From NCBI GenBank assembly GCA_030430255.1, contig JAUIGD010000023.1, forward strand, positions 1 to 32,281: a stretch of 32,281 nucleotides of DNA. The letters run 5' to 3'. The translations under genes were made by a program, and so were the position numbers. Below the pieces are notes generated by a model that saw only the letters and a list, made by a program, of their open reading frames with translations, did no database searches and had not been told where the DNA came from. This document shows, in pieces, positions 14,629 to 23,385 of the stretch; position 1 is the stretch's first letter; each line of letters starts with the position of its first letter. This DNA comes from Verrucomicrobiia bacterium (GTDB taxonomy: Bacteria; Verrucomicrobiota; Verrucomicrobiia; Verrucomicrobiales; DEV007).

Positions 14629-14674
14629 ATATATCGTGTTGAAGCCTGATTTTGGGGGGCTAAACTGCGTCTCG

Positions 14675-17600
14675 ATGGCCAGAGAATCCTGCGAACCCGA
14701 ACTTCGGAAGCTATTGAGCGAGCGCATCGCCGTCCTCGACGGGGCGATGGGCACGACGATTCGTGGATACGGGCTCGACGAGGCGGCGGCGCGCGGGGAG
14801 CGATTCCGATCGAACGCCAAAGACCTGCTCAACAACGGCGACATCCTCTCGCTGACGCGGCCGGACGTGATCGCGGACATCCACCGGCGATTCTATGAGG
14901 CCGGGTCGGACATCGCCGAGACCAACACTTTCTCAGCCACCTCGCTGGCGCAGAGCGAGTTCTTCGTCGAGGACCCGCGGGAGACCGGCAAGGGGCGCAA
15001 AGACCCGGAGTTTTTCCAGAAGATCATCGACGACCCGTTCCTCAACCAACTGGCGTGGGAGATGAACGTCGAATCGGCCAAGCTGTGCCGGGCGGAGGCG
15101 GACAAGGTGGCGGAGGCGACGGGGGTGAAGCGCTATGTCGCCGGGGCGATCGGGCCGTTGACGGTCTCCCTCACGCAGTCGCCAGACGCCGAGGACGCGG
15201 GCTTCCGGACGGTGGACTTCGACCAGGTCAAGGCCGCCTACGCGCATCAGGTGCGGGCCTTGATCGAAGGGGGGTGCGACATCCTGATGGTCGAAACCAT
15301 CTTCGATGCGCTCAATGCGAAGGCGGCGACGGTGGCGATCCGCGAGGTGTTCGACGCCGACGGGGTCGAGCTCCCGTTGATCGTCTCGGCGGCGGTCGGC
15401 ATGGGCGGTGAGACGATGATCTCGGCGCTCAAGGTCGAGGCGCTGGCCAACGCCTTCGCCCATGCGCACCCGCTCGCCATCGGCCTCAACTGCTCTCTCG
15501 GCCCGGACCTGATGCGGCCGTTCTTGGCCGAGCTCGCCGCCAAGACCAGCGCCTTCGTCTCGGCCTACCCGAACGCGGGCCTGCCCAACCCGCTGGCGCC
15601 GACGGGTTTCGATCTGCTGCCGCCGGACATGGCGGCGCACACCAGGGACTTCGCCGAAGGGGGGCTGGTGAACCTGATCGGCGGCTGCTGCGGCAACACG
15701 CCGGAGCACGTCGCGGCGATCGCCGAAGAGGCCAGGAAGCACCCGCCCCGCGCGATCCCGGACATCGAGCCGGTCATGCGCCTCAGCGGCTCCGAAGCCT
15801 ACAACCACACGCGGGACAAGAACTTCCTCATGATCGGCGAGCGGACGAACGTCGCCGGCTCGCCGCGTTTCGCCAAGATGATCAAGGAGGGGCGGCTCGA
15901 GGACGCGGTGGGCGTCGCCCGCCAACAGGTCGAGAACGGCGCCAACGTCATCGATGTCTGCATGGACGAGGGCCTGATCGACGGCGTCGAGATGATGACC
16001 AAGTTCCTCAACCTGGTCGCCGCAGAACCGGACGTGACCAAGGTGCCGATCATGGTCGACAGCTCCGACTGGCCCGTGCTCGAGGCCGGCCTGAAGTGCC
16101 TGCAGGGCAAGGGGATCGTCAACTCGATCTCGCTCAAGGAGGGCGAGGACAAGTTCGTGGAGCACGCCCGCAAGGTGATGAAGTACGGCGCTGCGGTGGT
16201 GGTGATGGCCTTCGACGAGGAGGGGCAGGCGGCCACCTACGAAGACCGGATCCGCATCTGCGAGCGCGCCTACCGCATCCTCGTCGACAAGGTCGGTTTC
16301 AACCCGCAAGACATCATCTTCGACCCGAACATCCTGACTGTCGCGACGGGGATGGAGGAGCACAACAACTACGCCGTCGATTTCATCGAGGCGACGCGCT
16401 GGATCAAAGCGAACCTGCCCGGCGCGAAGGTCAGCGGAGGGGTGTCGAACATCTCCTTCGGCTTCCGCGGCAACAACGTCGTCCGCGAGGCGATGCACTC
16501 CGCTTTCCTCTACCACGCCATCAGGGCGGGGATGGACATGGGCATCGTCAACGCGGGGATGCTCGAGGTCTACGAGGAGATCCCGAGAGAGTTGCTCGAC
16601 AAGGTCGAGGACGTGCTGTTGAACCGGCATCCGGGCGCCACAGAGGCGTTGATCGACTACGCGGAGCAGTTCAAGGGGCAGGCCGGCAAGAAGAAGGAGG
16701 TCGACCTGGGCTGGCGCGAGGCGCCGGTCGAGAAGCGCCTCGAGCACGCGCTGCTGAAGGGCATCACCGATTTCATCGACGAGGACACGGAGGAGGCGCG
16801 GGCGAAATACGGCAAGCCGCTGAAGGTCATCGAGGGGCCGCTGATGGACGGGATGGGGATCGTCGGCGACCTGTTCGGAGCCGGGAAGATGTTCCTGCCG
16901 CAGGTGGTGAAGAGCGCGCGGGTGATGAAGAAGAGCGTCGCCTACCTGGAGCCGTTCATGGAGGCGGAGAAGGCGGCGGGCGAGAGCGCGGGGAAGATCC
17001 TGATGGCCACGGTCAAGGGCGATGTGCACGACATCGGCAAGAACATCGTCGGCGTCGTGCTCGCCTGCAACAACTACGAGGTCATCGACATGGGCGTGAT
17101 GGTGCCCTGCGAGAAGATTTTGGCCAAAGCCGAAGAGGTCGGCGCGGACGTGATCGGCCTCAGCGGACTGATCACGCCGAGCCTCGACGAGATGATGCAT
17201 GTCGCGTCCGAGATGGAGCGCGCGGGGATGCGGACGCCGCTGTTGATCGGCGGCGCGACGACGAGCGCGGCGCACACGGCGATCAAGATCGCGCCGAACT
17301 ACCCCTCGGGCAGCGTGGTGCACGTCCTCGACGCCAGCCGCAGCGTGCCGGTGGTGACCTCGCTGTTGAGCGAGGACGGCCGCGACGCGTTCGTCGCCAA
17401 GAACGAGGCGCGCCATGTCGAGCTGGTGGAGAAGTTCGGCGGCGGGCCGAAGAAGGAGCTGATCTCGCTCGAGGAGGCGCGGGGGAACAAGTTCACCTGT
17501 GATTGGGCGACGGTGGAGGTGGCGGAGCCGAGTGGCGGGAGCAGGGATGCTGGCGCCACCTTCCTTGATCGTGACCGAGGAATTGCTGTCTCGGAGAGAA

Positions 17601-19150
17601 ACTTGCCCCACTGGGAGCAGGACGGGGCAACGTATGCTGTCACCCTCAGGCTGGCCGATTCACTGCCACAGTCCGTCGTGCACGGATACCGTCTTGAGCG
17701 GGAGCGGTTGGAGCGTCTCTTTGTAGAGGAGGCCGGCGAGCCGTGGCGCAAGCATCCCTGCTTGCAGCCCCTCTCCGATGCGGCGAAGCGCATCGACCAA
17801 CAACTCCGCGAACTCCACGAAGAACGGATTCAGAAGGCGCTCGATGCCGGTCACGGCGAGTGCTATCTGCGTGATCCAACGATCGCCGCCACCGTCGCTG
17901 ACGCCCTACGCCATTTCGATGGCGAGCGATATCAGCTGCTTGCGTGGTGCATCATGCCGAACCACGTGCATGCGTTGGTGAAGCCTCTGGGGGAGAACGC
18001 CCTCCAAGACATCCTGCACAGCTGGAAGTCGTTCTCCGCGCAGCAGGCGAACAAGATGCTCAACCGGCGGGGGGACTTTTGGCAGCACGAGTCCTACGAC
18101 CACCTCGTGCGGGACGAGAGAGACTTTTGGAACCAGCGGGAGTACGTGCTGCGGAACCCGGCGGCGGGTGGTTTGGGAGATGAATGGCGATGGGTGGAGG
18201 CCGTGCAGACGGTCGTCGGAGACGATATCGCCATGGCGGTCGACCGTGGCGATTTTACGGGGGCTGCAAGCAAGGATGCTTGCGCCACGCTGGTCCCTTT
18301 CATCGACTGGTCGCCGTTCTTTCACACATGGGAGCTGCGCGGGCGCTACCCGAAGATCTTCGAGGATCCGGACGTCGGGGAGGAGGCGCGGAAGTTGTTC
18401 GACGATGCGGGGGCGATGTTGAAGCGGATCATCGATGAGGGGCGCTTCACGGCGAAGGGCGTCTGGGGCCTGTTCCCGGCGAACTCCGTCGGGGACGACA
18501 TCGAGGTGTACGCGGATGGCTCGCGGTCGGAGCGGCGCTGCGTGTTCCACACGCTGCGCCAGCAGATGCCGAAGAAGGACAAGCCGAACTATGCGCTCGC
18601 CGATTTCGTCGCGCCGAAGGAGAGCGGGCGGCGGGACTACCTCGGCGGCTTCGTGGTCTGCATCCACGGCGGCGACGAGCTGGCGAAGGAGTTCGAGGCG
18701 GACCACGACGACTACTCGGCGATCATGGCCAAGGCGCTGGCCGACCGGCTCGCCGAGGCGTATGCGGAGAAGCTGCACCACGAGGTGCGGGTCGCTTGGG
18801 GCTACGAGCAGCCGGGGGAGTTCACCAATGAGGAGTACATCCGCGAGCGCTACCGCGGCATCCGGCCGGCCGGCGGCTACCCCGCACAGCCGGACCACAC
18901 CGAGAAGCGTACCTTGTTCGACCTGCTGGACGCCGAGCGGCTGACGGGTGCCAGCTTGACCGAGAGCATGGCGATGCACCCGGGGGCGGCGGTCAGCGGC
19001 CTCTACTTCTCGCATCCCCAATCGCGCTACTTCGGCGTCGGGCAGATCGGCAAGGACCAGGCCGAGGACTATGCCGCGCGGAAGGGCGTGCCGCTGGCGG
19101 AGGTCGAAAAGTGGCTGGGGCCGTGGTTGGGATACGCGCCGGGGCGTTAG
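14675..19150 (+). CDS. metH: Cobalamin-dependent methionine synthase MetH with an in-frame REP-associated transposase insertion
   Basis: Transfers methyl from 5-methyltetrahydrofolate via cobalamin to homocysteine. There are 1491 residues against about 1230 in the family. The homocysteine domain keeps its zinc ligands (C273 in LNCSLGP, C338-C339 in GGCCGNTP). The folate domain begins near [14 protein letters not shown]. The cobalamin domain has DVHDIG at 783-788 (axial His785). The AdoMet reactivation domain resumes at L1206 ([14 protein letters not shown]) and has [15 protein letters not shown] and a normal end. Between about residues 953 and 1205 lies foreign sequence: a RAYT transposase domain flanked by REP-like palindromes. 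The frame has no stop across both junctions. ATG 14675 gives the family N-terminus; the frame also opens at GTG 14636. The methyltransferase modules look intact; whether the enzyme works with this insert is unknown. Confidence 0.93.
17532..17559 (-). repeat. REP-like palindrome at the left edge of the transposase insert in metH
   Basis: Imperfect palindrome: GTGGCG pairs with CGCCAC, a GG/GG internal loop follows, then AGCA pairs with TGCT around a GGGA loop. Read on the minus strand it has a GTGG foot, AGCA, TCCC loop, TGCT. The core matches the other two copies at 17743 and 18261. In the metH frame it encodes [10 protein letters not shown]. Confidence 0.7.
17560..18260 (+). mobile_element. 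REP-associated tyrosine transposase (RAYT, Y1/HUH) domain embedded in metH
   Basis: RAYTs are single-strand HUH nucleases thought to spread REP sequences. The domain starts with the classic [22 protein letters not shown]-type block ([20 protein letters not shown]) and contains the HUH motif MPNHVHALV (His1097 and His1099 in MetH numbering). A conserved [19 protein letters not shown] block follows, with candidate nucleophile Tyr1141, then the [13 protein letters not shown] end. It is full length for the family and shows no internal stop. A TTG at 17603 preceded by GGAG (6-base spacing) could be its original start, which would allow separate translation. Its own stop codon is absent; the frame runs through the right REP back into metH. 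It has the phylum-typical sequence and no visible target-site duplication. Confidence 0.88.
17743..17771 (+). repeat. REP-like palindrome inside the transposase coding sequence
   Basis: GTGG foot, then GCAAGCA/TGCTTGC (7 bp) around a TCCC loop, then AGCCCC. It agrees with the reverse complement of the right-edge copy at 18261-18288 at all but one position and is in the opposite orientation to both flanking copies. It encodes part of the domain (WRKHPCLQP). Confidence 0.7.
18261..18288 (-). repeat. REP-like palindrome at the right edge of the transposase insert in metH
   Basis: Minus-strand reading: GTGG foot, GCAAGCA/TGCTTGC 7-bp stem around a TCCT loop, AGCCC. It is nearly identical to the internal copy at 17743 and in the same orientation as the left copy at 17532. 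In the metH frame it encodes [10 protein letters not shown], and MetH sequence resumes directly after it, so it marks the right junction. Confidence 0.7.
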
Positions 19151-19197
19151 GTGGCAATCCGAGGTTTCAACGTTCGACCAAGCGCCCTTGAGGCCCG

Positions 19198-20931
<1,734 letters not shown>

Positions 20932-21363: not shown

Positions 21364-23385
<2,022 letters not shown>

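Follow-up and report, generated by a model that had tools for sequence, protein, structure and literature searches.

The window analysed here comprises positions 1 to 32,281 of contig JAUIGD010000023.1 (forward strand) from the Verrucomicrobiia bacterium assembly GCA_030430255.1. The feature under study is a REP-associated tyrosine transposase (RAYT; REP, repetitive extragenic palindrome) that lies in frame within the methionine synthase gene metH. The metH frame occupies positions 14636..19150 of the plus strand and is open throughout; it encodes 1504 aa with a computed mass of 165 kDa if unspliced, although the start may instead be the ATG at 14675 (Met14). Its first part (14636..17539, plus strand) comprises the homocysteine, folate, cap and cobalamin domains and the beginning of a linker, as assigned by Pfam and NCBIfam matches and by alignment. 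This part is followed on the same strand by an in-frame insert of 750 bp or 250 codons (17540..18289, MetH residues 969-1218), delimited by alignment with insert-free relatives, and by the AdoMet-dependent reactivation domain (18290..19147; PF02965 match at 18284-19087, and alignment). According to the alignment with the insert-free MetH of relatives, which represent the empty site, the insert is situated in the linker joining the cobalamin domain to the reactivation domain. Its ends are exact only to about 12 variable linker residues of the relatives that have no counterpart (judged by eye). The initial annotation, made from the letters alone, had placed a RAYT without a stop in this interdomain linker with both sides of MetH normal, which the domain searches and the alignment bore out; the extent it gave, 17532-18288 and about 253 codons, had to be corrected to the boundaries above. 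The G+C content at third codon positions is 0.74 in the insert and 0.93 in the MetH sequence on both sides.

In the Pfam search the MetH domains flank a Y1_Tnp match in the insert (27.2 bits, cut-off 23). The NCBIfam model REP_Tyr_transpos (NF047646) matched the 1504-aa window protein with E 2.3e-18 and 66.5 bits, which is below the model's whole-protein cut-off of 80. The RAYT homology domain spans 17564..18184 on the plus strand, with E 2.6e-85 to an alignment (A1) of 20 RAYT rows, three of them from MetH, that includes the window RAYT as its first row. The HUH pair expected in MPNHVHALV was confirmed as the motif NHVH (17960..17971, plus strand), the H-x-H of which is invariant in 20 of the 20 aligned RAYTs. 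The catalytic tyrosine had been sought in SYDHLVRD (18095-18097); this motif varies between Y and F, and the tyrosine that is invariant in all 20 sequences is the one in EYVLRNP (18143..18145, plus strand), which aligns with the corresponding motif of 4er8, a RAYT of known structure, and is the catalytic residue by homology. Structure prediction, which had been proposed as a check, succeeded for the insert alone. It was modelled as a RAYT fold (pLDDT 83.5) with 4er8 as the closest solved structure (best Foldseek match, E 6.8e-7, TM scores of 0.59 for the target and 0.38 for the query, root-mean-square deviation 8.0); a sequence profile match to 4er8 gave E 4.2e-10. The AlphaFold2 model of the C-terminal half of the fusion was poor (pLDDT 64.8, pTM 0.53), and the domain arrangement is not readable from it.

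Three copies of one palindrome were found in the insert, where 0 were expected in 100 shuffles. The left-edge copy (17540..17559, plus strand) has a partly degenerate stem with a CCAC foot on the 3' side, and a second copy (17743..17765, minus strand; 20-nt palindrome match at 17743-17762) lies inside the RAYT coding region and is read in frame. The right-edge copy (18266..18288, plus strand) forms a GCAAGCA-loop-TGCTTGC stem, recognised by eye, with a CCAC foot that reads GTGG on the opposite strand; the 20-nt palindrome match at 18269-18288 falls within this hairpin. The GTGG foot is one form reported for REPs in the available part of the respective study (PMC6006769). Homology on both sides of the insert together with the REP copies excludes a chance origin. 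A RAYT is embedded in frame in the metH gene of the window, and the insert is a REPtron that, as judged from its open frame, is read through in translation. The same REP recurs in the genome of the window (G000) on contigs C2, C72 (as an inverted pair), C197, C220 and C598, and a reversed control gave 0 matches. A fourth, weaker match with three mismatches is located beyond metH (21614-21633, minus strand), and the inverted dimer of the window's REP, at C72:18897-18969, is likewise not in metH.

PF02965 has one match in this genome, the metH fusion, and MetH is the sole complete methionine synthase detected, next to a partial MetE-like piece (C347:105-473). The assembly is a draft of 679 contigs, 89% complete and with 6.75% contamination. 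A second in-frame RAYT, 50% identical to the one in the window, was found inside the only detected ispG of this genome. A single chance event as the source of the metH fusion was ruled out by this second copy and by the wider survey described below.

Among the best RAYT matches in 57 relatives, many were located in frames of more than 1000 aa. A search of 386 genomes of the same order yielded 215 with a RAYT match at E ≤ 1e-25, and 81 of the best 150 rows had frames of 500 aa or longer. By taxonomic family, these long frames made up 62/66 of the best 150 rows in f2, 5/60 in f4, 6/13 in f1, 5/7 in f3, 1/1 in f5 and 2/3 in f6. The initial annotation had taken RAYTs to be normally separate single genes; these counts contradict that for the order, most plainly in f2, with f4 showing mostly short frames. 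In a phylum sample of 288 genomes, 78 had a match at E ≤ 1e-40, and frames of 500 aa or longer made up 50 of the best 150 rows. In a further collection of named loci, found by RAYT motif patterns (best 80 kept) and not selected for frame length, 43 of the 80 RAYTs had a frame of 420 aa or longer. By record names, the internal RAYTs of this collection come from Verrucomicrobiota, Planctomycetota, Kiritimatiellota, Bacteroidota, Ignavibacteriota, Chloroflexota, Armatimonadota, Methylomirabilota, Myxococcota and Pseudomonadota; single binning errors are possible throughout this list.

For the comparisons below a working set of 171 RAYT loci was used. In 127 of them the frame reaches 420 aa or more (in-frame loci), and 118 of these 127 are internal, flanked by 60 aa or more on each side. 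The set was deliberately enriched for long frames, since 60 of 68 further long-frame rows of the same-order list were added and, of two earlier batches, one took long-frame rows only and the other mostly short ones; 127/171 is therefore no frequency. Family f2 accounts for 57 of the 112 internal non-duplicate loci. Six named loci duplicate loci of the genome set. L073 (named Akkermansiaceae) is identical to L169 from genome G292 of the same order, from which the order of the window's genome was taken to be Verrucomicrobiales. The six were left out of the cross-family nearest-RAYT and dN/dS counts (dN, dS: nonsynonymous and synonymous divergence), two of them also out of the MetH tree and the comparison of MetH sites A and B; they are counted in the host clusters, the motif counts, the 171-RAYT tree, the correlation of RAYT and host identities and the start-codon, REP-flank and ≥ 80% identity counts. 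At the 44 short-frame loci, a tblastn search with the host parts of the named host clusters found adjoining host sequence in three (L090, L101 and L123). L090 and L101 are in-frame RAYTs in FabZ-like frames of Planctomycetota that fall under the 420-aa cut-off (L101 is partly masked), so that some of the short-frame 'free' loci do not in fact stand alone; both are labelled short-frame in the RAYT tree and in the start-codon, REP-flank and cross-family counts. L123 has LeuS sequence on its left side only. The idea that the short-frame loci represent disrupted, out-of-frame host genes was rejected, because host sequence lies beside only 3/44 and two of these are in frame.

The 127 in-frame loci were grouped into host clusters, namely MetH (32), LeuS (20), HsdR of type I restriction (8), IspG (8), CarB (7), adenosine deaminase (6), TPR/DUF5107 (5), Eco57I-type (5), ValS (4), NUDIX (3), glycosyltransferase (3), DUF1156 (3), AlaS (2), DinG-like (2), FabZ-like (2, plus L090 and L101) and SNF2 (2); 15 others include XseA (L108) and Sua5 (L065). 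Hosts were named by Pfam and NCBIfam scans, after a scanned protein in their cluster or, in the case of ValS for L068, DinG and FabZ, by eye, and host domains flank the RAYT on both sides in at least 13 of 18 representatives scanned with Pfam. In LeuS one loop is shared by 19 of 20 copies, the 20th being cut by a contig end, and in CarB one loop is shared by all seven. IspG has two sites with two and five copies (one copy is cut off). In MetH the linker used in the window (site A) holds three copies and a loop of the reactivation domain (site B) holds 29, both sites being variable loops or linkers; the MetH frames L166 and L199 carry two RAYTs each, at sites A and B. A PF02965 scan of the 386 genomes gave a match in 359, and among the matches listed at least 43 genomes have two; in at least 39 of these the best E value falls in the range of 1e-57 to 1e-70, which would fit a domain divided by a site-B insert (judged by eye).

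The embedded RAYTs retain their catalytic residues. HUH is intact in 127/127 in-frame copies, including 84/84 of those found without a motif pattern, and YxxxN[PA] is present in 122/127, the remaining five retaining the tyrosine at this position. From 702 non-duplicate same-host pairs, 99 had a dS of 0.02-2; their RAYT dN/dS was 0.04-0.52, with values below 0.3 in 77 and below 0.5 in 96. The in-frame RAYTs are thus, by these ratios, under purifying selection. The host MetH is also constrained (dN 0.035 and dS 1.05 for L180/L181). An ATG at most 30 codons upstream of the LPHW motif was found in 19 of 122 in-frame copies versus 26 of 40 short-frame copies (P 8e-9), five in-frame and four short-frame loci lacking LPHW having been dropped. 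Inverted GT[AG]G REP hairpins occur on both sides of 66 of the 127 in-frame loci and of none of 635 base-shuffled ones, and such a hairpin occurs on at least one side in 85/127 compared with 29/635.

The RAYTs group by host gene. On the tree of all 171, the host labels require 46 changes as compared with 114.6 when shuffled. The nearest RAYT from another taxonomic family resides in the same host gene in 63 of 98 cases, whereas shuffling labels within families gave a mean of 18% and a maximum of 30%. Recent hopping from gene to gene was considered and rejected: 30 pairs with at least 80% nucleotide identity (over at least 350 bp) are within the same gene, some being one locus from two collections, and no such pair links different host genes. 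The grouping extends to the site within the gene. The site-A RAYTs of L166 and L199 are each other's closest kin (80%) and are 75% and 71% identical to the site-A RAYT of L201; they are only about 50% like site-B RAYTs, and the site-B RAYTs in these two frames have other nearest kin.

The L180/L181 pair bears directly on movement between alleles. Their RAYTs have a dS of 0 against a dS of 1.05 for the host metH genes, and the identical block of about 733 bp has sharp edges, beginning 47 bp to the left of the RAYT domain and ending 83 bp to its right. Judging from this pattern, an identical unit has moved recently between diverged metH genes. For L153/L157 the RAYT dS is 0.07 and the host dS 0.59, and in seven pairs altogether, from two MetH groups and one IspG group, the RAYT dS is less than half the host dS. 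On a MetH tree with 23 insert-free sequences (L056 left out; L079 forms a very long branch) presence versus absence of an insert requires 13 changes. At the junction of L147 the unit directly follows a GTAG that the empty gene L238 also has, which might suggest a single-stranded DNA (ssDNA) mechanism. No GTAG was found at the empty sites of L237 and L235, the partners of L149 and L184, and no target rule is therefore claimed.

We consider the in-frame RAYTs to be REPtrons that behave as unspliced, site-specific, homing-like selfish domains and are kept in frame by the host enzyme, and assign this explanation a probability of about 0.6. It draws on the in-frame position, the conserved HUH and tyrosine, the purifying selection, the REP flanks, the clustering by gene and site, the patchiness and the one recent transfer. 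The REPtron would be one continuous open frame without a stop and usually without an ATG of its own. Lodged in a linker or loop of an essential-type enzyme, it would be translated together with the host protein as an additional domain within it. The fusion protein would be made and be active as an ssDNA nuclease, and the RAYT, alone or by seeding recombination, would copy the unit into the same linker of alleles not yet invaded. The host gene would provide promoter and start, and the need for the host enzyme would prevent decay of the frame. A more far-reaching version, to which we would give slightly less than even odds, is an undescribed lifestyle in which HUH-transposase units persist as permanent unspliced internal domains of essential enzymes, with one loop per lineage, homing into empty alleles and shielded from decay by the indispensability of the enzyme; these would be intein-like parasites without splicing.

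Several observations weigh against this explanation. Expression of the fusion, nuclease activity and the mechanism of transfer are what we infer from the DNA, and plain homologous recombination could account for the transfer without RAYT chemistry. L180/L181 is the only unambiguous transfer among the seven low-dS pairs. The nearest RAYT from another family has the same host in only 1/7 cases for IspG and 9/19 for LeuS, and the site-B inserts require 11 changes on the MetH tree as compared with 17.6 when shuffled, that is, they are more clustered, so part of the site clustering is shared descent. Start-like codons including GTG and TTG occur within 45 codons in 98/122 in-frame and 34/35 short-frame copies, and REP pairs are equally common at short-frame loci (22/44). 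The RAYT of the window is nearest to an IspG RAYT (57%) and, among other families, to a LeuS RAYT (53%), and its link to the site-A copy L079 is weak, so that homing is no more than a possibility for this copy. Both of its edge REPs have the GTGG foot and are direct, the left one being degenerate, whereas other loci have inverted pairs; the window copy may therefore no longer move.

The strongest alternative, though an unlikely one in our estimate, is a passive filter, by which REPtrons insert anywhere and the rare in-frame hits in tolerant loops survive and are then inherited with the gene, without homing. REPs read in frame within genes are already known (PMC3733652, as far as available), the MetH sites are variable, the identities of RAYTs and of their hosts are correlated (0.48-0.97 in the eight groups that have over four pairs), and in 27 pairs the RAYT dS exceeds the host dS, which also speaks against homing. 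Such a filter does not readily explain an identical unit in metH genes with a host dS of 1.05, the 13 changes on the MetH tree, same-gene clustering that spans families and phyla, or the purifying selection and intact catalytic motifs; free insertion should moreover give recent gene-to-gene copies, of which there are none at 80% identity or more.

Domestication, in which the RAYT domain is kept for a useful function in the host enzyme or cell, for example regulation, appears improbable. The purifying selection and the long residence in MetH would agree with it, and RAYTs elsewhere are called domesticated in the available parts of two studies (PMC8266576, PMC8049555). The hosts are functionally unrelated, though, presence is patchy in close relatives, and two RAYTs per gene occur. 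The initial annotation had treated the metH fusion as an isolated oddity, to be explained by a very recent hit or by domestication; what emerges is a recurrent class, clustered by gene and site and patchy in its presence, with conserved catalytic residues.

Removal of the insert after transcription or translation, in the manner of an intron, IStron or intein, would account for the tolerance in essential genes, and we regard it as very improbable. An RNA intron would gain nothing from selection that keeps the frame open, and an Rfam scan of positions 16500-19200 of the window found no intron family and one sub-threshold chance match. No intein domain was found in the window protein (Pfam, NCBIfam) or in 18 relatives (Pfam), and the C edge of the insert has no His-Asn, the pair expected there by the terminal splice-residue rule for inteins. 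An assembly or binning artefact, which the draft state and contamination of G000, its inferred status as a metagenome-assembled genome (MAG) and the MAG origin of most related loci might suggest, is hardly credible, given the second insertion in the same genome and the same architecture in the single-contig genome G220, in the non-MAG-tagged records L082 and L085 and in dozens of other assemblies.

Inteins with homing endonucleases form in-frame, site-specific lineages in conserved genes, are patchy in distribution and excise themselves. The REPtrons resemble them in the first three respects and, as far as the clustering and the one clear transfer suggest, in a homing-like behaviour; they differ in that no splicing domain was found here and that the nuclease is of the HUH type. 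Inteins of this kind are mentioned in PMC4853749. IStrons are likewise insertion sequence elements living within genes, which splice RNA via a group I intron according to the accessible text (PMC4227781); none was found at 16500-19200 of the window.

With known RAYTs and REPtrons, as presented in the available parts of two papers (PMC6006769, PMC8266576), the embedded copies share the HUH and tyrosine motifs, a fold closest to 4er8 and REP hairpins with a GT[AG]G foot. The known ones, also termed TnpA_REP, are portrayed there as separate, housekeeping-like genes, whereas these are internal domains of host enzymes. A third paper, in the part at hand, portrays RAYTs as single-copy, vertically inherited and domesticated, and in its REPIN model any gene into which a REPIN inserts is assumed to be one that 'will be destroyed' (PMC8049555). 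TnpA_REP genes that contain in-frame REPs have been described as subclass 2.4 in a study which, in the same accessible text, set aside genes of excessive length as 'gene fusions or annotation errors' (PMC6006769). In-frame REPs and Rickettsia palindromic elements are similar to the units described here in being palindromic elements translated in frame. According to the accessible portion of that report they mostly comprise 20-30 aa, with clusters of 43-82 aa, many are in repair and RNA-related genes, and the GTAG cases are mostly from Opitutus terrae (Verrucomicrobia); this portion mentions no transposase, whereas here the transposase itself is embedded with its motifs intact (PMC3733652). Our search of the open-licence literature of PubMed Central, which leaves out most RAYT papers in subscription journals, brought up no report of host enzymes with an in-frame RAYT inside them.

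In our reading the loci form a class of REPtrons within essential-type enzymes that are site-specific, apparently not spliced and probably homing. RAYTs reside inside core enzymes, sometimes with at least two per genome or per gene, with their catalytic residues retained and with at least one apparent interspecies move at the same site. If confirmed, this would be a further way, besides introns and inteins, of living in essential genes, and would make RAYT mobility testable. In-frame RAYTs may explain the long 'fusion' proteins that surveys discard, and their insertion sites could serve as natural maps of insertion-tolerant positions in MetH, LeuS, IspG and CarB. Annotators should be aware that a foreign nuclease domain can be present in core enzymes of Verrucomicrobiota and Planctomycetota.

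Some further features were noted at the MetH loci and around the RAYTs. In L214/L251, the closest insert-free relative of the window, the site-A linker is longer than in others (GGGAGIPVTACSPP), possibly a scar or a REP-only remnant. Several frames among L234-L238 and other f2 MetH loci comprise about 920-1035 aa and may lack the homocysteine domain, perhaps representing a split MetH. L250 (G072, single contig) and L079 contain a further in-frame MetH insert of about 230-320 aa between the cap and cobalamin domains; it has a P-loop, FNAGGQGSGKTT, and we presume that it is perhaps zeta-toxin or kinase-like. The same insert may be present in further f4 genomes, where the MetH frame has about 1610-1660 aa. 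Tandem repeated peptides (e.g. VGGTPTLLE), apparently translated REP arrays, stand beside the RAYT in L176, L195, L055 and L048.

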